The notes under the pieces were generated by a model. That model was not told the DNA's origin and ran no database searches. It worked only from the letters and a program-made list of their open reading frames with translations. DNA of 64,000 nucleotides, taken from positions 558,001 through 622,000 of the forward strand of contig NZ_CP046457.1 of the NCBI RefSeq assembly GCF_009734445.1, in the 5' to 3' direction. Shown piece after piece: positions 31,531 through 64,000 of this stretch (the stretch's first letter is position 1; each line of letters opens with the position of its first letter). Source of the DNA: Candidatus Syntrophocurvum alkaliphilum. Lineage in GTDB: Bacteria > Bacillota > Syntrophomonadia > Syntrophomonadales > Syntrophomonadaceae. The position numbers and the translations under genes were made by a program.

Positions 31531-33591
31531 ATGCTAAGTAGGACTAGTTTAACAGATAGAATAACCGATTATAGTGATGTTTTAATTGCTATGATTGTTA
31601 TATGTGTAGTTATGATGATGATAGTGCCTTTAAGAACAGGCATATTAGATATATTAATAACTTTTAACATAACTTTTGCATTAATAATTTTAATGGTAAC
31701 TATATTTAACAATGATCCACTAGATTTTTCAGTTTTTCCTGCATTATTACTAATTATGACCTTATTTAGATTAGCAATAAATGTTTCAACTACTAGGCTA
31801 ATATTATTAGATGCAGATGCAGGTCAAGTTATTGAGGCATTTGGATCATTTGTAATAGGTGGTAATACCGTTGTAGGTTTAGTTATATTTTTAATTCTAG
31901 TTGTTATACAATTTATTGTTATTACCAAAGGAGCAGAAAGAGCTTCAGAAGTAGCAGCTAGATTTACTCTTGATGCTATGCCTGGTAAACAAATGGCTAT
32001 AGATGCAGATTTAAATGCTGGGTTAATAAACGAAGAACAGGCACGTGAAAGACGTGAAAAGATACAAAAAGAAGCAAATTTTTATGGTTCTATGGATGGA
32101 GCTAGTAAATTTGTTAAAGGTGATGCCATAGCAGGTATAGTTATAATTATAATAAATATTGTCGGTGGTTTAGTTATAGGTATGGCACAAATGGGAATGG
32201 ATTTTTCTCAAGCTGCTGGAACTTACACAATTCTAACAGTAGGTGATGGGCTAGTAACCCAAATTCCTGCATTACTTATATCAACAGCAACAGGTATTGT
32301 AGTAACCAGAAGTATATCTGAAACAGGGTTAGGTACACAATTAACCACCCAAATCCTTAACTTTCCCAATACGATGGGGATAGTAGCAGTAGTTCTTTTT
32401 GTGCTTGGTACTATTGGATTACCCACCTTTCCGATGTATACATTAGCTGTTCTTTTTGCCATTATGTTTTTTGTTTTTAGAAAAACAGAAGATGAAATTG
32501 TAGAAGAAGAGGAACCAGAGGATATTCAAGAGGCTGAAGAAGTTAAGAAGGCTGAAAATGTTATGGAACTATTACAAGTTGAAAAAATGGAAATGGAATT
32601 AGGCTATGGATTGATTCCTCTTGTTGATGCAGATCAAGGGGGAGATCTTTTAGATAGAATTGTAATGATTAGAAGACAATGTGCTGTTGAATTAGGCTTT
32701 GTTGTGCCTCCAATAAGAATTCGTGATAATATGCAACTTAAGCCTAATTCATACTCTATTAAGCTTAAGGGTATGGTTATAGCTTCAGGTGAATTAATCT
32801 TAGACAATTATCTAGCAATTGGTCCTGATATTGAAAATGATACGGAGATTACAGGAATTGATACTATTGAACCGGCATTTAATTTACCTGCCAAGTGGAT
32901 AGATACCAATGAAAAAGATAGTGCTGAATTAAAAGGATATACAGTGGTGGATCCACCGTCTGTTTTAGCAACACACATCACATCTGTTATTAAATCACAT
33001 GCCTTTGAGTTATTGGGTAGACAAGAAGTTCAAGGCATTATTGATTATGTTAAAGAGCAAAATCAAGCAGTTATAGAAGAACTAATACCAGATTTATTAA
33101 GTTTAGGTGAAATACAAAAAGTCTTAGGAAACCTTTTAAAAGAGCAAATATCTATTAGAGATATTATTACTATACTTGAAACTTTGGCTGACTACTCTAA
33201 ATTAACCAAGGATACTGATGTTTTGAGTGAGTATGTACGTCAATCTCTAAAACGTCAGATAAGTAATCAATATTCTGAAGATAATAAAATTAGTGTATTA
33301 ACAATAGATCCTAATTTAGAAGATAAATTGCGCGAATCTGTTCAGCAGTCTGAATTTGGTTCATATTTAGCTCTTGATCCTGAAATAGCTCAGACAATGA
33401 TAGATAATTTAACAGCACATTACCAAGAGCTTACTAGTAGAGGTGTTAGTCCAATAATACTATGTGCACCAGTGTTAAGAATTTATTTTAAGCGTTTAAT
33501 AGATAGATTTATGCCTGGTTTAACGGTACTTTCATATAATGAAATAGATAATAACATAGAGGTTGAGGTTTTAGGGATGGTGTCAGTATGA
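31531..33591 (+). CDS. flhA: Flagellar biosynthesis protein FlhA
   Basis: Ion-driven export gate subunit. 686 residues: about eight membrane helices in the first 320 residues with the conserved FHIPEP-type segment PALLLIMTLFRLAINVSTTR and the loop FTLDAMPGKQMAIDADLNAG, then a large cytoplasmic domain (about 335-686) that docks chaperone-substrate complexes. Start ATG after GTGGGAGGAA. The last four bases overlap flhF. Confidence 0.97.
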   Translation: MLSRTSLTDRITDYSDVLIAMIVICVVMMMIVPLRTGILDILITFNITFALIILMVTIFNNDPLDFSVFPALLLIMTLFRLAINVSTTRLILLDADAGQVIEAFGSFVIGGNTVVGLVIFLILVVIQFIVITKGAERASEVAARFTLDAMPGKQMAIDADLNAGLINEEQARERREKIQKEANFYGSMDGASKFVKGDAIAGIVIIIINIVGGLVIGMAQMGMDFSQAAGTYTILTVGDGLVTQIPALLISTATGIVVTRSISETGLGTQLTTQILNFPNTMGIVAVVLFVLGTIGLPTFPMYTLAVLFAIMFFVFRKTEDEIVEEEEPEDIQEAEEVKKAENVMELLQVEKMEMELGYGLIPLVDADQGGDLLDRIVMIRRQCAVELGFVVPPIRIRDNMQLKPNSYSIKLKGMVIASGELILDNYLAIGPDIENDTEITGIDTIEPAFNLPAKWIDTNEKDSAELKGYTVVDPPSVLATHITSVIKSHAFELLGRQEVQGIIDYVKEQNQAVIEELIPDLLSLGEIQKVLGNLLKEQISIRDIITILETLADYSKLTKDTDVLSEYVRQSLKRQISNQYSEDNKISVLTIDPNLEDKLRESVQQSEFGSYLALDPEIAQTMIDNLTAHYQELTSRGVSPIILCAPVLRIYFKRLIDRFMPGLTVLSYNEIDNNIEVEVLGMVSV

Positions 33592-34766
33592 AAATAAAAA
33601 AGTTTGTAGCCGATGATTTTCAAACAGCAATAATGCAAGCTAAAAGAGAAATGGGAAGTGAAGCAATAATACTATATACCAAAAAGGTTAAAAAAGGAGG
33701 ATTTTTGGGTTTATTCTCAAGTACAAAAGTAGAAGTAACAGTAGGTATTGATGATGATGTAAAAATTGAAAGGGATAATTTAAGTAATAAATCTAATAGT
33801 CCAAGCGCTAAAGATAATAAAATAAGCGATGAATTTAAAAATCTACTAAACCAACCACCTAAGGATAACGAAATAGTAAGTGAACTACATAAAATGAAGG
33901 ATATAATGTCAGATGTAAAATCAAAAATGTATGATTTAGAAGTAATTAAAGGTTTATCAGAACCGTTACAAAATTTTTATAATTCATTAATAGAAGAAAA
34001 TGTGGACAAAGAAATTGCACTTGAAATAATAAATAATATCCAATTACGGCTATCAAACGAAACTAATAACGATATCGAATTTGAAGAACTATGCTTAAAT
34101 ACAATAAAAGAGTACTTAAGAAATATTAGGCCCATAGAATTAACAGAGAATAGTAAAGCAAAAGTAATTGTCTTTGTCGGTCCAACTGGTGTAGGTAAAA
34201 CTACTACAATAGCAAAATTAGCTGCTAATTCTACATTTATAGAAGGAAAAGATGTTGCATTAATAACGCTTGATACTTATAGAATTTCAGCTGCAGAACA
34301 GCTTAAAACCTTTGCTGAAATAATAGATATTCCTATTAGAGTTATATTTAATCCTAAAGATTTACATGATTCACTACAATATTTTAATGATAAAGACTTA
34401 ATATTTATTGATACAGCAGGTCGTAGTCCTTATAAATTAGAGCACATGAATGAACTTAAAGAGTTTATGGAAGTAGCTAAACCAGATGAAAGTATTTTAG
34501 TTTTAAGTGTTACAACTAGTTCAACAGAGCTTATTAATATTTATGAAAAATTCAATGAACTAGGAGTTGACAAACTAATATTTACAAAATTGGATGAAAC
34601 TCAAAACTATGGACATCTTTTAAATGTAATATATGAGATAAATAAACCAGTGGCATATTTTACTACTGGCCAAAATGTTCCTGATGATATAGAAGTTCCA
34701 GATGGATTAAGATTTGCTAATAAAGTTATTAGAAAGGAAGAGAGCCATGAAAGACCAAGCAGATAA
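33588..34766 (+). CDS. flhF: Flagellar SRP-like GTPase FlhF
   Basis: GTPase that sets the place and number of flagella. The 392-residue protein has a basic N-terminal domain starting MKIKKFVADDFQTAIMQAKR, a helical N domain, and an SRP-type GTPase with P-loop GPTGVGKTT at 198-206, DTYRISAAEQLKTFAE and DTAGRSPY. It pairs functionally with FlhG, whose gene overlaps its end by 20 bases. Confidence 0.95.
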   Translation: MKIKKFVADDFQTAIMQAKREMGSEAIILYTKKVKKGGFLGLFSSTKVEVTVGIDDDVKIERDNLSNKSNSPSAKDNKISDEFKNLLNQPPKDNEIVSELHKMKDIMSDVKSKMYDLEVIKGLSEPLQNFYNSLIEENVDKEIALEIINNIQLRLSNETNNDIEFEELCLNTIKEYLRNIRPIELTENSKAKVIVFVGPTGVGKTTTIAKLAANSTFIEGKDVALITLDTYRISAAEQLKTFAEIIDIPIRVIFNPKDLHDSLQYFNDKDLIFIDTAGRSPYKLEHMNELKEFMEVAKPDESILVLSVTTSSTELINIYEKFNELGVDKLIFTKLDETQNYGHLLNVIYEINKPVAYFTTGQNVPDDIEVPDGLRFANKVIRKEESHERPSR

Positions 34767-35643
34767 AATACGACAAATGGCTCTAGAAATGGGAACTCAA
34801 TTAGAAAATGAGTTAAGTAGTAAAATACTAAGGAGCCGAGTAATTGTTGTTGCTAGTGGGAAAGGTGGTGTAGGCAAAAGTACACTTGCGATAAATCTTG
34901 CATTAAGTATATGTCTGATGAATAAAAAGGTAGTTTTAATGGATGCAGATTTAGGGTTAGCAAATATAGATATAATGTTGGGTATTACACCAAACTATAA
35001 TCTACTTGACGTTGTGCAAGGCAGTAAAAGTATTAAAGATATTATGGTAGAAGGTCCTAATGGATTGAAATTAATACCAGGAGGATCTGGCATAATTGAG
35101 CTTGCTAATCTAAAAGAACATGAACTCAAGAGACTTCTAATACAGATGAGTAGCCTTGATAGTGAATTTGATTATATGATTGTTGATACTGGTGCTGGTA
35201 TATCCAATAATGTACTTAGCTTTATATTATCATCAGATGATGTTTTAATTGTAACCACCCCTGAGCCTACATCACTTACTGATGCATATGGTGTTGTTAA
35301 AAGTGCGGTGAGATTTGGATTTAATGGTAATATTCAGGTGGTTATTAATAAGGTTAACAACAAATCAGAAGGTTTATTAGTAGGTGAAAAATTTAAATTA
35401 GTTAGTGAGAAATTTTTAGATCTTAATATTAATATACTAGGACATATGGTTAAAGAACCTATGGTTGAAGAGGGTATAAAGAGACAAGAAGTTTTTATTG
35501 AGGCTTTTCCTAAGAGTATAGCAACAAAAAACATTAATAACATAGCTCAAAAATTAGTTAATGAAAACAATAGCGAAAATAAAGAGGTTAAAGCTCAAGG
35601 GATTAAAGGATTTTTCAAACAATTGGTGAATTTTAGAAAATAA
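34747..35643 (+). CDS. flhG: Flagellar number regulator FlhG (MinD-like ATPase, YlxH)
   Basis: MinD/ParA family ATPase that antagonises FlhF and limits flagellar number. About 298 residues from the ATG at 34747, preceded by AAGGAAGAG; a longer in-frame start at 34714 has no site. The N-terminus MKDQADKIRQMALEMG is the activator helix that contacts FlhF. The deviant Walker A is GKGGVGKS at 38-45. VVLMDADLGLANIDIMLG and the IVDTGAG motif follow. Ends with a basic amphipathic tail that probably binds membrane. Confidence 0.95.
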   Translation: MKDQADKIRQMALEMGTQLENELSSKILRSRVIVVASGKGGVGKSTLAINLALSICLMNKKVVLMDADLGLANIDIMLGITPNYNLLDVVQGSKSIKDIMVEGPNGLKLIPGGSGIIELANLKEHELKRLLIQMSSLDSEFDYMIVDTGAGISNNVLSFILSSDDVLIVTTPEPTSLTDAYGVVKSAVRFGFNGNIQVVINKVNNKSEGLLVGEKFKLVSEKFLDLNINILGHMVKEPMVEEGIKRQEVFIEAFPKSIATKNINNIAQKLVNENNSENKEVKAQGIKGFFKQLVNFRK

Positions 35644-41077: not shown

Positions 41078-41851
41078 ATGAGTAGTAGCGAATTAAGCCT
41101 TCTTTGGGAAAAATATAAAGACCATGATGATTTAGAGGCTAGAGACAAACTTATAATACATTATGCACCTATGGTTAAATATGTAGCTAATAGACTAGCT
41201 ATTAATCTTTCATCTGTTGTAGAAACAGATGAACTAATCTCTTATGGTATAGAGGGTTTAATTGATGCTATAGAAAGATATGATCATACAAGAAATATTA
41301 AATTTGAAACTTATGCAGTGACTCGTATAAGGGGTTCAATGATAGATGGATTACGTTCAATGGACTGGGTACCAGTTTCTATCAGACAAAAGAGTAAAGA
41401 ATTAGAAAAAGTTTATACTAAGCTTGAAGCTAAGCTTGGCAGATCAGCTACTGATGAGGAAGTTGCAAAAGAAATGGGGATAAGTGTAGATGACCTACAT
41501 CAATTATTAAAAGATGTTGCATCTACTACGATAATATCATTAGATGATTTTATTACAGGTGATGAAGAGGATAATAAAAAAAGAATTATTGATATGCTTG
41601 AGGATAATAATTCTACAGGCACGGTTGAGCTAGTAGAATTTAGAGAAATAAAAGATATTTTAGCCAAATCAATTACTAAACTTCCTGAAAAAGAAAAAAC
41701 AGTTATTTACTTGTATTACTATGAGGGTTTAACTCTTAAAGAAATTGGAGCAGTATTAACTTTATCAGAATCTCGAATATCACAGCTTCATACCAAAGCT
41801 ATTCTTAGGTTGAGAGGGAGTTTAAGCAAGAAAAAACAATTACTTTTTTAA
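41078..41851 (+). CDS. sigD: Flagellar RNA polymerase sigma factor SigD (FliA/WhiG family)
   Basis: Directs late flagellar and chemotaxis gene transcription. The 257-residue protein has region 2 with DELISYGIEGLIDAIERYDH and FETYAVTRIRGSMIDGLRSM plus DWVP, region 3, and region 4 LTLKEIGAVLTLSESRISQL. Lack of sporulation-factor signatures and position after cheCD identify it as SigD. An anti-sigma factor gene flgM is not in this window. It starts one base after the cheD stop. Confidence 0.95.
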   Translation: MSSSELSLLWEKYKDHDDLEARDKLIIHYAPMVKYVANRLAINLSSVVETDELISYGIEGLIDAIERYDHTRNIKFETYAVTRIRGSMIDGLRSMDWVPVSIRQKSKELEKVYTKLEAKLGRSATDEEVAKEMGISVDDLHQLLKDVASTTIISLDDFITGDEEDNKKRIIDMLEDNNSTGTVELVEFREIKDILAKSITKLPEKEKTVIYLYYYEGLTLKEIGAVLTLSESRISQLHTKAILRLRGSLSKKKQLLF

Positions 41852-41869
41852 AAAAGAGAGGTGGACCTG

Positions 41870-43288
41870 ATGACAGATAATGAAACAAATAGCAATGTGA
41901 AAGTTGATGGTCAAGTTAAAGTAATTGTCGATCGTGAAAAACTTAATGCATATATTGAAGTAACCCCTCCATTAGGGGACGGTAAACCTTGCGAGTATGA
42001 AGATGTAATAAATACTTTAAATGAAAATTCGGTTGTATATCAACTTAAAAAGGAAAAAATTAAAGAAGCTCTTAAAAAAGAAAATTGGAACAAACGGATT
42101 CACATATCTCAAGGAAAACCTCCTGTCAACGGTAAAGATGCTATTATTACATATAAATTCCCTCTTCCTTGGGAAAGAATAGCTAAACCCAAAATAGATG
42201 AAAAAGGAAAAGCAAATTATCAGGATTTAGATTTAATACACAACGTAAAAACAGGTGATTTGTTAGCAGCACGAACACCACCTGATGAAGGTAATCCAGG
42301 TATAGATGTATATGGCAATGAAATTAAACCAAAACCAGGGAAAGATAAATTATTACCTAGAGGTAAAAATACTGTTTGTGATAAAGAAGAGTTAATATTA
42401 TATGCGTCTGCGGCTGGACATGTTACTATGATAGATAATAAGGTAGTAGTTAAGCCTATATATGAACATGATGGAGATGTAGATTATTCTTCTGGAAATA
42501 TAGAATTTGTTGGCAATGTAGTTATAAGGGGCAATGTGAATAGTGGCTTTACTGTCAAGGCAGAGGGAGATATTGAGATATATGGGTTTGTTGAAGGGGC
42601 GCAAATACTAGCAGAAGGTAGTATATATATAAAAGGTGGAATAACAGGAGGAATAAGAGGATATATAAAAGCAGGTGAAAACATATATGCTAGATTTGCA
42701 GAAAATTCACGTTTAGATGCTGGACGCGATATATATATTCGTGATGCAATAATGCAATCTTCGGTTAAAGCAGGAGGGAGCATAAAGGTTGTTGAAAGAA
42801 GGGCTACCATAGTTGGAGGTAATATTCAGGCGTCACAGGAAATTGAAGCTAAATTTATTGGATCACAAATAGGTACACAAACAATAATTAATGTAGGTAT
42901 AAAGCCAGAATATAGGCAGGAATATCAGGAATTAATAAAAAATAGAAATGAAAAGAAAAAGGTTTTTGATCACTTATCACATAATTTACAGATATACCAG
43001 AAGCGAGGTATTTCACCTGAAAATTTAACTGAGAAAAAGCGTTTAACATTAATTAAAATGTTAGATGAGTTGAAAAAAAGTAAACAAGAATTGACTAATA
43101 TGGATAAAAGAATAGCGATATTAGAAGAAGAATTTAAAAATATTAATAACGCAAAAGTTAAAGCAACAGAAGTTGTTTATCCCGGTGTTAAAATTTATAT
43201 TGGTCAATCTATATATTTAGTAAATGATGAAATCAAGTATTCTCAATTTATTTTAGAGAATGGTGATGTTGTTATTTCACCACTATAA
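41870..43288 (+). CDS. FapA family protein (DUF342, polymer-forming)
   Basis: About 472 residues from the ATG at 41870, seven bases after GAGGTGG. The middle is a right-handed beta-helix-like repeat region (about residues 200-330) with short glycine-rich repeats such as GNIEFVGNVVIRGNVNSGF and GRDIYIRDAIMQSSVKAGGS. The C-terminal part is coiled coil. DUF342/FapA proteins are common directly after sigD in Clostridia; no biochemical role is established, and a cell-polar or flagellar scaffold is conjecture. Confidence 0.85.
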   Translation: MTDNETNSNVKVDGQVKVIVDREKLNAYIEVTPPLGDGKPCEYEDVINTLNENSVVYQLKKEKIKEALKKENWNKRIHISQGKPPVNGKDAIITYKFPLPWERIAKPKIDEKGKANYQDLDLIHNVKTGDLLAARTPPDEGNPGIDVYGNEIKPKPGKDKLLPRGKNTVCDKEELILYASAAGHVTMIDNKVVVKPIYEHDGDVDYSSGNIEFVGNVVIRGNVNSGFTVKAEGDIEIYGFVEGAQILAEGSIYIKGGITGGIRGYIKAGENIYARFAENSRLDAGRDIYIRDAIMQSSVKAGGSIKVVERRATIVGGNIQASQEIEAKFIGSQIGTQTIINVGIKPEYRQEYQELIKNRNEKKKVFDHLSHNLQIYQKRGISPENLTEKKRLTLIKMLDELKKSKQELTNMDKRIAILEEEFKNINNAKVKATEVVYPGVKIYIGQSIYLVNDEIKYSQFILENGDVVISPL

Positions 43289-43314: not shown

Positions 43315-43635
43315 ATGACAATTAGAAGTACTGATATGCAGGTCCTCATTCAAAGAGTTGGTGATGTAGCAAGGATACAACAAACTCAGCAACAAGAACA
43401 ATCTAATAGACAACAAGAATTTATAAATCAAATAAATCAGCAAAAAGAAAAAGATAGCAAAACTACTAATAAGCCAATAAAACCAGAATCTGCACATATT
43501 AACGATAAAGAAGAAAAGAAAAATAAAAAAAATAAGCGTAAAAAAGAAAAAAATAAAAAGGAAAATGATGAAAAAAAGGAGAATAAAGAAGAATTGGTAT
43601 CAGAAAAAGGTAATAATATAGATGTAAAAATATAA
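43315..43635 (+). CDS. Small lysine-rich hypothetical protein
   Basis: 106 residues. The N-terminal third, MTIRSTDMQVLIQRVGDVAR plus a Gln-rich helix, looks like an ordered amphipathic segment. The rest (about 45-95) is a low-complexity Lys/Glu/Asn tract with many KKEKNKK runs. I know similar small proteins at this place, between fapA and the swrB-like gene, in Clostridia, but no function. GGGGGG precedes the ATG. Confidence 0.7.
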   Translation: MTIRSTDMQVLIQRVGDVARIQQTQQQEQSNRQQEFINQINQQKEKDSKTTNKPIKPESAHINDKEEKKNKKNKRKKEKNKKENDEKKENKEELVSEKGNNIDVKI

Positions 43636-43639
43636 GTAG

Positions 43640-44335
43640 GTGATAACAATTACAAATGTACTAATGCTAATATCTGTTCTTCTTTTAGTCATTACAATTT
43701 TATCAATATATATTCATAAGCAGTATTTGGAAAATTTTAAAAATGAAGTGCAAGATATCGTGAATGAAGGAAAAGATATTCAAGAAAACTTGGAAAAAAT
43801 ATTGGATCAATCACTTGATGTTTCGCAGACTATTTTGGATCGAGTAGAAATGTCCAACCTAGCAAGTGATAAAAATACTCAACCTCTACAGTCTAATGAA
43901 AAAGGACAAAAAATAAATTCAAATAAAAGTAATTCTAATAAAATACGTGTTTACCAACTTGCAAAAGAATTAAACATGACTAGTAAAGAAATGGTTAATA
44001 GGCTTAACCAATTAGGATTAAAAATAAACAATCATATGAATATTTTAGAAGAGGAGAAAGCTAACTGGGTAAGAGATATATTAAAAATAAATGAAGAAAT
44101 GAATAAAAATACTAACAGTAATAAGAGTAATATTAGTTTATTTTTAAAAAGAAATGATAAAAATATAATTGATGTAAATCATTTAGATGAGTTAAAAGCA
44201 GTTGATCCATATATTGCAGTTAAAACTCTTAATGAAAAAGGCTATGACATTAAAGAAATTGCTCAATTATTAGGCAGGGGTCAAGGTGAAGTTAGTTTGA
44301 TATTAAATCTTAATAAAACGAAGAAAGCATTATAA
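43640..44335 (+). CDS. SwrB-position membrane protein with an IF2 N-terminal domain
   Basis: 231 residues: one N-terminal membrane helix (about 4-25), a coiled coil (28-70), an Asn/Ser-rich linker, a domain at about 101-148, a second linker and a C-terminal helix-turn-helix-like end (DIKEIAQLLGRGQGEVSLIL, about 203-222) as in SwrB/DUF6115 proteins. The 101-148 domain aligns without gaps to residues 3-50 of InfB here, 24 of 48 identical by my count (IRVYQLAKELN against [11 protein letters not shown]). Position between sigD and rpsB is that of swrB, a promoter of flagellar maturation in Bacillus. The start is unclear: GTG at 43640 lacks a site, while AGGTGAT lies five bases before an ATT at 43649. 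Function is inferred. Confidence 0.8.
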   Translation: MITITNVLMLISVLLLVITILSIYIHKQYLENFKNEVQDIVNEGKDIQENLEKILDQSLDVSQTILDRVEMSNLASDKNTQPLQSNEKGQKINSNKSNSNKIRVYQLAKELNMTSKEMVNRLNQLGLKINNHMNILEEEKANWVRDILKINEEMNKNTNSNKSNISLFLKRNDKNIIDVNHLDELKAVDPYIAVKTLNEKGYDIKEIAQLLGRGQGEVSLILNLNKTKKAL

Positions 44336-44536: not shown

Positions 44537-45235
44537 GTGTCAGTAATTACTATGAAGCAACTGCTTGAAGCAGGAGTGCATTTCGGACATCAGACAAGAC
44601 GTTGGAACCCTAAAATGTCGACTTATATTTATATGGAGAGAAACGGCATTTACATTATTGATTTGCAGCAAACAGTAAAAAAATTTGAAGAAGCTTATAC
44701 ATTTGTTAAAAATGTAGCTGCAGAGGGCAAGGGAGTATTATTTGTTGGTACTAAAAAACAAGCCCAGGAAACAATTAAAGAGCAAGCTGAAAGGTGTAGT
44801 ATGTACTATGTAAACCAGCGTTGGCTAGGTGGGATGCTTACTAACTTTAAAACCATTAGAAAGCGAGTCTATCGTCTTAAGGAACTTGAAAAGATGGAAG
44901 AGGATGGCATGTTTGAAGTTTTAACCAAGAAAGAAGTTGCAAGGTTAATAAACGAAAGAGAAAGGTTAGAACGTTTCCTCGGTGGTATAAAAGATATGGA
45001 CAAACTCCCAGGTGCTGTTTTTGTAGTAGATCCAAGAAAAGAAAGAATCGCTGTAGCTGAGGCTCGAAAGCTAAATATTCCTGTTATAGCTATAGTTGAT
45101 ACTAATTGTGATCCGGATGAGGTTGATTATGTAATTCCAGGTAATGATGATGCTATCAGAGCTGTAAAATTAATGTCATCAAAAATAGCTGATGCTGTAA
45201 TAGAAGGCCAACAGGGAGAGCAAACAGCCGAGTAA
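44537..45235 (+). CDS. rpsB: 30S ribosomal protein S2
   Basis: 232 residues. Starts with GTG after AAAGGAGGTG. Family motifs [20 protein letters not shown] and [12 protein letters not shown] at the N-terminus, [24 protein letters not shown], and [20 protein letters not shown] near the C-terminus. Forms the classic rpsB-tsf-pyrH-frr run, here with a terminator between rpsB and tsf. Confidence 0.98.
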
Positions 45236-61844: not shown

Positions 61845-62189
61845 TTGAAAAAAATTTACAGCTTAATAGGATTTGCTACCAAAGCAGGCAAGGTTTCTTC
61901 AGGTGCGATGGCGGCTAAAACCAGTTTGGTTAGACGTAAGGCAAGGTTACTTATCGTTACTCACGATATGTCTGAAAGAGCAAGAGAATCTTTAGTCGTA
62001 GCATGTTCAAAAAATAAAGTGCCTTGGGTAATTTTTGGGAATAAATATGAATTAGGTACTAGTGTAGGAAAAGCATATAGAGTAGCAATAACTATTAATG
62101 ATAAAAAAATAGCGGATGCTATATTAGATGCGTTAAAGACACTAGGAGAAGAGGTAAATATCATGGGGGTGGTTGAATGGCCAAAATAA
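61845..62189 (+). CDS. ylxQ: L7Ae-family RNA-binding protein YlxQ
   Basis: About 114 residues from the TTG at 61845 (AAGGTGTGAT upstream). L7Ae/L30e fold with [39 protein letters not shown] and [19 protein letters not shown]. Kink-turn-binding family; a target is not known. The end overlaps infB by 13 bases. Confidence 0.93.
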
Positions 62190-64000
62190 GAGTACATGAA
62201 CTAGCTAAAGAACTAAATATTATTAGTAGAGAATTAGTGCAAACTTTACAAAATATGGGTATGGATATAAAAAATCATATGAGCACTCTTGAAGAATCAC
62301 AGGTAGATTGGGTTAAAAGCAGAATCAACCAAGCTAATGCTAAAGAATCCGCTACTGAGAAAAAACAAGAGTCTTCACAAATGCAGGCTTCACAACCACA
62401 ATCCAAAAATTCTTCTAAAAACATAGAATCAGGAAGAGACCGTAGCAAAAATACTTTTTCTAAAAATAAAAATGAAGCACAAAATCAGAATAAACAACAA
62501 ACTAGTAATAAAAAAATTGGTGGGCAAAATCAATCTAAACAAGAGTCAGTTAGACATAAACATGCAGATGATCAATCTAAACAAAAACCCATTAGACAAA
62601 GACCTGTAGGAGATAATCAACCTAGCGGTCAAAAGCCAGCAGGGCAACATCAACCTAGTCAAAAACCTAGTGGTCAAAAGCCAGTAGGGCAACATCAAAC
62701 TAAGCAAAAGCCTAGTGGACAAAAAACTAGTTATGATAATAAAAAAGGTCAGCAAAATAATAGAAATAATCAACCACAAAGACGTGATTATAGCAAACCG
62801 CAAAAGAAAAAACATAAAAAGAAAAAGGTGGATACAACACCAAAAACTCCTGATGTTATTACAATCTTGGATACAATAACAGTAAGAGAATTAGCTGAAA
62901 AATTAAACAAGGGTTCAGCAGAGATTGTGAAAAAATTAATGGAGCTTGGAACAATGGCAACTATTAATCAAGTTGTTGATTTTGAAACTGCTGAAATTAT
63001 TGCAAGTTTATATGAAGTACGTGTTGAGCGTGGTATATCAGAAGAAGAAAAGATATTAGAGGAAATAGTAGATAGTGAAGAAAGCCTCGAACCTAGACCT
63101 CCTATAGTTACAGTAATGGGTCATGTTGATCATGGAAAAACATCTTTATTAGATAGAATAAGAAAAGCGGATGTAGCATCAGGTGAAGCCGGTGGAATTA
63201 CTCAGCATATAGGTGCGTATCAAGTAAAAGTTAATGAAAACAGAGTAACTTTCATTGATACACCAGGCCATGAAGCCTTTACTTCAATGAGAGCTAGGGG
63301 AGCTAATATTACTGATATTGTTATATTAGTAGTAGCTGCGGATGATGGTGTTATGCCTCAAACAATTGAAGCAATAAACCATATAAAAGCTGCAGAAGTA
63401 CCCTTTGTAGTTGCAGTTAATAAAATAGATAAAACAGAAGCAAATCAAGATAAGATAATGCAGCAACTAACAGAATACAATATTGTCCCGGAAGCATGGG
63501 GCGGTGAAACCATATTTGCACCAGTTTCTGCTATTACAGGTGAAGGTATTGAAAATCTTTTAGAAATGCTACTACTAGTTGCTGAAATGAATGAGATTAG
63601 TGCTAATCCAGATAGAGCTGCAGAGGGTGTAGTTATTGAAGGTGAGCTTGATAAAGGTAGAGGTCCAGTAGCAACAGTTTTAGTACAAAAAGGAACTTTA
63701 AAAGTTGGTGATAGCTTATTAGCTGGTTTTAATTGGTGTAAAGTAAGGGCTATGACTGATGATAGAGGAAGAAGAGTAGAGGAGGCTTTACCCTCTACAC
63801 CAGTAGAAATTATGGGATGGTCCGATGTTCCTGAAGCTGGAACAAAAGTCCAAGTTGTAGATGAAAAAATAGCCAAGGAAGTTACTAATTTAAGACTCAC
63901 TGAAAAGAAAATCGAAGAGCAAAAACAACAAAGCAAAGTTTCACTTGATGATTTCTTTGAGCATATGAAAGAATCAGATATAAAAGACTTAAACTTAATT
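62177..64000 (+). CDS. infB: Translation initiation factor IF-2 (3' end beyond the window)
   Basis: 608 residues are visible from the ATG at 62177 after GGGGGTGG. N-terminal IF2_N domain (about 3-50, [12 protein letters not shown]), a Lys/Gln/Ser-rich low-complexity linker (about 55-215) with a 15-residue repeat, a second IF2_N-type domain (about 230-280), and the GTPase domain with [17 protein letters not shown] and NKID. Domain II begins near the cut. The frame is open to the last base. The first IF2_N domain has a close copy in the membrane protein at 43640-44335. Confidence 0.97.
62621..62724 (+). repeat. In-frame 45-base tandem repeat in infB
   Basis: Two full 45-base units (62621-62665 and 62666-62710) and a partial third encode [30 protein letters not shown] and PSGQK. 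The unit length is a multiple of three, so copy-number change keeps the reading frame. It lies in the flexible linker between the two IF2_N domains. Confidence 0.85.

Follow-up and report, generated by a model that had tools for sequence, protein, structure and literature searches.

The window analyzed here is a stretch of 64,000 nucleotides, bases 558001-622000 of the 2,360,781-bp single-contig genome of Candidatus Syntrophocurvum alkaliphilum strain B(2M). The genome is published and belongs to the family Syntrophomonadaceae (PMC7005122).

Flagellar operon and protein architecture

The window contains a flagellar operon with the order flhB, flhA, flhF, flhG, a PilZ/YcgR gene, cheB with ORFs at che-gene positions, sigD, and fapA. 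Downstream of fapA are a small Lys-rich ORF, a gene that encodes a 231-aa protein with an IF2_N domain (the fusion gene), a terminator-like hairpin, and rpsB. The 231-aa protein is a single-pass membrane protein, and its gene is the last of the fla/che operon upstream of rpsB. A sequence-only reading had placed the gene at the end of a flagellar operon, and fapA on one side with the hairpin and rpsB on the other confirm this. The features are as follows, in window coordinates.

33588..34766, + strand: flhF, presumed to partner the C-terminal domain; lies between flhA and flhG and encodes an SRP54-type GTPase domain (1.1e-47)
34714..35643, + strand: flhG, MinD-like ATPase (start codon uncertain)
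41078..41851, + strand: sigD-type sigma factor (Pfam sigma-70 regions 2, 3, and 4)
41861..43288, + strand: fapA (Pfam FapA, 2.6e-81)
43315..43635, + strand: small Lys-rich ORF that follows fapA and precedes the fusion gene; position conserved
43640..44335, + strand: fusion gene for the membrane-anchored flagellar-operon protein with IF2_N (231 aa, start codon GTG); an ORF whose placement between fapA and rpsB is kept in relatives
43652..43711, + strand: N-terminal transmembrane helix, approximately residues 5-24, from the sequence and an AlphaFold2 helix that begins at residue 2
43712..43867, + strand: long helix or coiled coil, residues 25-76, within AlphaFold2 helix 2-76
43937..44080, + strand: IF2_N domain, residues 100-147 (fold to about residue 156), from the PF04760 match (E = 1.3e-13) and fold matches
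44174..44332, + strand: C-terminal helix-turn-helix domain, residues 179-231, DUF6115/DUF2802-like by profiles, AlphaFold2 model, and motif spacing (PMC11620751)
44334..44358, + strand: intrinsic-terminator-like hairpin at the end of the flagellar operon (2 in the region versus 0.3 expected)
44537..45235, + strand: rpsB (Pfam Ribosomal_S2, 6e-106)
62183..62329, + strand: infB N1 domain, the lineage to which the inserted domain is traced
62870..63016, + strand: infB N2 domain, not the source (N2 split 100/100)

For the small, very Lys-rich ORF at 43315-43635, phmmer finds relatives in many Clostridia, again in this position. The ORF does not match any Pfam family. The low-complexity linker of infB contains a 45-bp tandem repeat in 2.4 copies (window 62619-62724).

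An AlphaFold2 model of the 231-aa protein was run with 16 sequences. It contains a single long helix at residues 2-76, made up of the anchor and the coiled coil, with pLDDT mostly above 90. The hydrophobic N-terminal helix and the coiled coil had both been called by the sequence-only reading, and both are present. A compact beta-alpha-alpha-beta-alpha domain follows at residues 100-156, with pLDDT of about 85 to 88 across residues 100-150. The last domain, at residues 179-230, has four helices, resembles a helix-turn-helix, and has pLDDT of about 82 to 93. Residues 80-98 and 157-174 have low confidence. The pTM was low (0.28), as expected, because the domains sit on flexible linkers. The C-terminus is probably cytoplasmic, judging from the basic residues after the transmembrane helix.

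Identity, distribution, and origin of the IF2_N domain

Residues 100-147 match PF04760 (IF2_N) at 50.9 bits (cut-off 25.3; E = 1.3e-13). The domain had been proposed at about residues 95-155, and the match agrees with this. All 16 of the fused homologues scanned also match IF2_N at E <= 0.1. The domain aligns with the N1 domain of the local infB over 49 ungapped columns with 24 identities. None of 200,000 shuffles reached 24, and the maximum was 14. The gap-free alignment and the 24 identities had been reported before from a hand count, which was correct. The genome contains three strong IF2_N sites, two in infB and one in the 231-aa protein. A profile search of this protein found neither the GTPase domain nor the C-terminal domains of IF2.

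The best PDB matches to the IF2_N part in Foldseek were all the Thermus thermophilus IF2 N domain. The match to 4b3x covered 57 columns with an rmsd of 1.0 and 38% identity. VIA-align gave a Z score of 9.7 against the T. thermophilus IF2 N domain, and the first unrelated folds were the RacA and Par winged helices at Z of about 6. The predicted fold is that of IF2 domain N, as the sequence-only reading had suggested. Convergence or chance likeness to a helix-turn-helix was rejected on the E value of 1.3e-13, the 0 of 200,000 shuffles, and the IF2 N domains at the top of the fold search. An assembly chimera or annotation artifact was rejected on the presence of the fusion in 24 genomes with the same synteny and many independent assemblies. 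A match to DUF6115 that runs across the IF2_N region was taken as profile drift because the short members of DUF6115 do not contain the domain. The IF2_N fusion is real and is selectively kept.

Twelve genera of the Syntrophomonadaceae (GTDB) have the fusion, in 24 genomes altogether, including entries for Syntrophomonas and Thermosyntropha. The gene lies between fapA and rpsB in every genome whose contig reaches both sides. The same architecture had been expected in orthologues, and these genomes bear it out. In seven further Syntrophomonadaceae genera, and in both of the other families sampled from the order, the gene between fapA and rpsB encodes a shorter protein that does not contain IF2_N. 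No full match to the fused profile above 200 bits was found outside the Syntrophomonadaceae in a sample of 398 genomes from the phylum; the remaining matches were to infB alone or to the C-terminal domain alone. In a sample of 119 genomes from the phylum, none outside the Syntrophomonadaceae had more than two IF2_N matches, and two are expected from infB. No other non-IF2 protein with IF2_N was seen in the phylum sample. The three short single-domain IF2_N frames examined (G119, G150, and G157) are all at contig ends and are most likely truncated infB.

On a tree of rpsB and fapA, the trait changes 7 times by parsimony, and well-supported branches force at least 3 changes. This is most simply explained by a gain near the base of the Syntrophomonadaceae followed by repeated losses; the alternative is several gains. 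Since several genera lack the domain, the core function does not require it. One short homologue (L023, in G022) has a possible decayed remnant of IF2_N, LAKQYGLTTEQVDSLLKDL, that fits loss of the domain.

The origin of the domain was examined with a tree of 49 columns. The SwrB-type IF2_N domains group with infB N1, and infB N2 is cut off at 100/100. An origin from N2 was rejected on this split. A supported group (96/95) contains 16 of the 24 SwrB-type domains, and the rest are unplaced on the 49-column tree. A single clade of all SwrB-type domains was not rejected (AU P value of 0.35), but 49 columns are too few to show one origin. The IF2_N domain of the 231-aa protein is 49% identical to N1 of its own infB versus up to 61% identical to N1 of relatives. 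A single recent copy from the local infB is thus unsupported. In each of the 14 genomes compared, swrB and infB are 16.5 to 19.2 kb apart, a distance at which an old local duplication is easily imagined. The sequences support derivation of the inserted domain from the infB N1 lineage. The idea that it derives from infB therefore stands at the level of the N1 lineage and is unsupported for the infB of the same genome.

The dN/dS of the domain in close pairs was mostly about 0.08 to 0.24, and the linkers were generally less conserved. The pair of S. wolfei and S. wolfei subsp. methylbutyratica had a dN/dS of about 0.6 for the domain. The domain is thus mostly under purifying selection. The SwrB-type copies retain the first strand and helix of infB N1, with K1, R3, V/I4, Y5, E6, L7, A8, S15, and K16. 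K30 and S34 in the KNHMS loop are invariant in all 34 infB N1 domains compared. In the SwrB-type copies, K30 is kept in 12%; position 34 is S in 8% and N in 91%. The mean identity is 39% among the SwrB-type copies versus 66% among the infB N1 domains of the order. The net charge of the SwrB-type domain is near zero. By these comparisons, the fold is kept along with part of the conserved surface, and another part of that surface has been rebuilt. Binding to the ribosome or NusA should not be assumed to be retained because K30 and S34 are replaced. These features favor a re-specialized docking domain over a ribosome binder that has stayed as it was.

The C-terminal domain and its likeness to FipA

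The C-terminal domain of the 231-aa protein scores 23.8 bits against DUF6115 (PF19610), which is below the cut-off of 27. All 16 fused homologues match DUF6115 at E <= 0.1, with a best value of 2.3e-8. The SwrB/DUF6115-like end proposed by the sequence-only reading is thus found in the family, and the protein's own score is sub-threshold. DUF2802 (PF10975) scores 13.1 bits in the 231-aa protein against a cut-off of 33.5, and homologues at the same locus reach 42.2 bits. Weak matches to DUF2802 were found in 8 of the 16 fused proteins. L115, a short homologue in a similar position, matches both DUF6115 (3.5e-9) and DUF2802 (3.1e-7). Through such homologues, the DUF6115 C-terminal domain is linked by sequence to DUF2802 of FipA as a related domain. 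This kinship to the FlhF-binding domain of FipA was missed by the earlier reading.

FipA is anchored in the membrane, has a coiled coil, and recruits FlhF; DUF2802 is its cytoplasmic domain (PMC11620751). FipA has the fully conserved residues G110, E126, and L129, and the change G110A or L129A abolishes FlhF binding (PMC11620751). The 231-aa protein contains a G-x15-E-x2-L motif at G201, E217, and L220, with the same spacing as those residues. G201 and E217 are invariant in the fused proteins, and L220 is nearly so. The equivalence of these residues to those of FipA is drawn from the spacing and the DUF2802 profile. The relation to DUF2802 and the motif spacing suggest that the C-terminal end may contact FlhF, whose gene lies in this operon.

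DUF2802 was matched at E <= 1e-4 in 42 of 249 genomes from the phylum, 4 of them above the Pfam cut-off, and in 0 of 14 control genomes. The matching loci examined (among L115 and L151-L178) were mostly beside fapA, sigD, or rpsB. The profile matches suggest that distant relatives of FipA may be common in Clostridia. The authors of the FipA study describe it as absent from Bacillus (PMC11620751). Binding of FipA to FlhF is known only in gammaproteobacteria. S. wolfei subsp. methylbutyratica has a second DUF2802-like match (L114, G034:C8:82442-82618). It scored 30.3 bits in a 132-aa frame, and no flagellar neighbor was detected.

Proposed role and competing explanations

Each part of the 231-aa protein belongs to a known family, and the whole has the layout of a FipA/SwrB-type adaptor. 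The combination is restricted to one lineage and dispensable in several genera. The IF2_N part is of the same family (PF04760) and fold (Z of 9.7) as IF2 N1 and is up to 61% identical to N1 of infB in relatives. It differs from IF2 in that it lies in a 231-aa membrane protein without a GTPase domain, has other residues in place of K30 and S34 in the KNHMS loop, and diverges faster. The N-terminal membrane helix, the coiled coil, the C-terminal G-x15-E-x2-L, and the setting among flagellar genes that include flhF and flhG are common to FipA and the 231-aa protein. FipA does not contain IF2_N, whereas in the 231-aa protein the DUF2802 score is sub-threshold and the FlhF contact is predicted. The clostridial DUF6115 proteins between fapA and rpsB have the same position, transmembrane helix and coil, and C-terminal domain, but they are about 130 to 200 aa long and do not contain IF2_N. 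The fusion itself had been thought to be undescribed. We found no description of it in the literature searched, and none of DUF6115 or of IF2_N outside IF2, with subscription journals barely covered.

The position of the fusion gene is like that of B. subtilis swrB, which closes the fla/che operon and precedes rpsB. SwrB is also described as a single-pass membrane protein. No IF2_N has been reported in SwrB, which is reported to be restricted to Bacillus (PMC4526659). SwrB of B. subtilis promotes maturation of the basal body and activates export (PMC4526659, PMC12153297).

We propose that the 231-aa protein is a flagellar membrane adaptor of the FipA/SwrB type that gained a copy of infB N1 as a second docking module. 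We give this reading a probability of about one-half. The copy was probably acquired near the base of the Syntrophomonadaceae. With its anchor and coiled coil, the protein would sit at the membrane close to nascent basal bodies. The C-terminal domain would recruit or hold the SRP-type GTPase FlhF, as FipA does; flhF and flhG lie in the same operon as the fusion gene. The IF2_N domain would bring one more protein partner to the assembly. That partner was probably taken over from the interactions of IF2 N1 at first and re-specialized later, since part of the IF2 surface is kept and part is replaced. The output, by analogy with SwrB, may be regulation of the time or place at which basal bodies turn active. 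Points against the adaptor reading are the protein's own low DUF2802 score (13.1 bits), which leaves the link to homologues, the absence of the domain from several genera, the dN/dS of about 0.6 in the S. wolfei pair, and the restriction of known FipA-FlhF binding to gammaproteobacteria.

The N1 source, the low charge, and the altered loop favor docking to a protein. Such docking has a precedent in N1 of Escherichia coli IF2, which binds NusA directly (PMC12297416). The sequence-only reading had offered two possibilities, a ribosome- or RNA-binding surface or a helical fold used for protein contacts. The first is unsupported as such, and the second is preferred, on the loss of K30 and S34 in nearly all copies and the net charge near zero. 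The NusA of the window contains 351 aa and appears to stop after the KH domains and to lack AR1, the repeat implicated in E. coli. NusA is thus an uncertain partner.

It is possible, though unlikely, that the domain has kept a partner of the IF2 N domain, either NusA-RNA polymerase or the 30S shoulder, and tethers transcribing or translating complexes of the flagellar operon to the membrane beside FlhF. Basal-body parts would then be made where they are inserted. The K-x-R-x-Y-E-L-A segment is retained, and the C-terminal domain may bind an SRP-type GTPase. Binding to rRNA also has a precedent, in that the homologous N2 sub-domain of Pseudomonas aeruginosa IF2 binds helix h16 of 16S rRNA (PMC9192638). 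However, the h16 binder is N2, and the SwrB-type copy is of the N1 type. The near loss of K30 and S34, the mean identity of 39% versus 66%, the net charge, and the apparent lack of AR1 in the NusA of the window also argue against it. We are doubtful of the version in which the IF2-derived domain holds NusA-RNA polymerase or an initiating 30S subunit, the other end holds FlhF, and gene expression is coupled to placement of the organelle.

The domain may instead be a generic insert that arose by local recombination with infB about 18 kb away. It would be tolerated as a folded spacer with no specific partner and gradually lost. Points in its favor are the 16.5 to 19.2 kb between swrB and infB in 14 of 14 genomes, the repeated changes on the tree (at least 3 forced and 7 by parsimony), and the fast divergence. 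It agrees poorly with dN/dS mostly well below 1 and with a domain that is more conserved than the flanking linkers. The domain has also gained family-specific conserved residues (N34 and Y5), and it is kept across 12 genera. We give this explanation little credence. A RacA-like anchor that ties flagellar sites to the chromosome, through an IF2_N fold like the MerR/RacA-type winged helices and the C-terminal helix-turn-helix, is very improbable. In its favor, the IF2_N part resembles the DNA-binding domains of RacA and pSK1 Par (Z of 5.7 to 6.3), the C-terminus resembles the helix-turn-helix domains of ParB and of sigma region 4 (Z of about 6), and 5 of 16 members match MerR_1 weakly. Against it, such Z values are common among small helical domains, the sequence assigns the domain to IF2_N rather than MerR, there is no excess of positive charge, and the equivalent C-terminal domain of FipA binds FlhF.

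A 2025 review stated that how landmarking works outside the monotrichous pattern is unclear (PMC12826062). Membrane proteins that recruit FlhF have been described as confined to polarly flagellated gammaproteobacteria, and they may have relatives across flagellated Clostridia. In the phylum sample, IF2_N occurs outside infB only in the Syntrophomonadaceae, and its stable, selected transfer there to a flagellar membrane protein is thus a natural experiment on what the poorly understood N1 can bind.

Two fused proteins (L071 and L076, from G032 and G016) contain about 380 aa with long inserted linkers. Both have a degenerate C-terminal motif, RSQGEI...FMLSI, which suggests that the function of their C-terminal domain may be altered.
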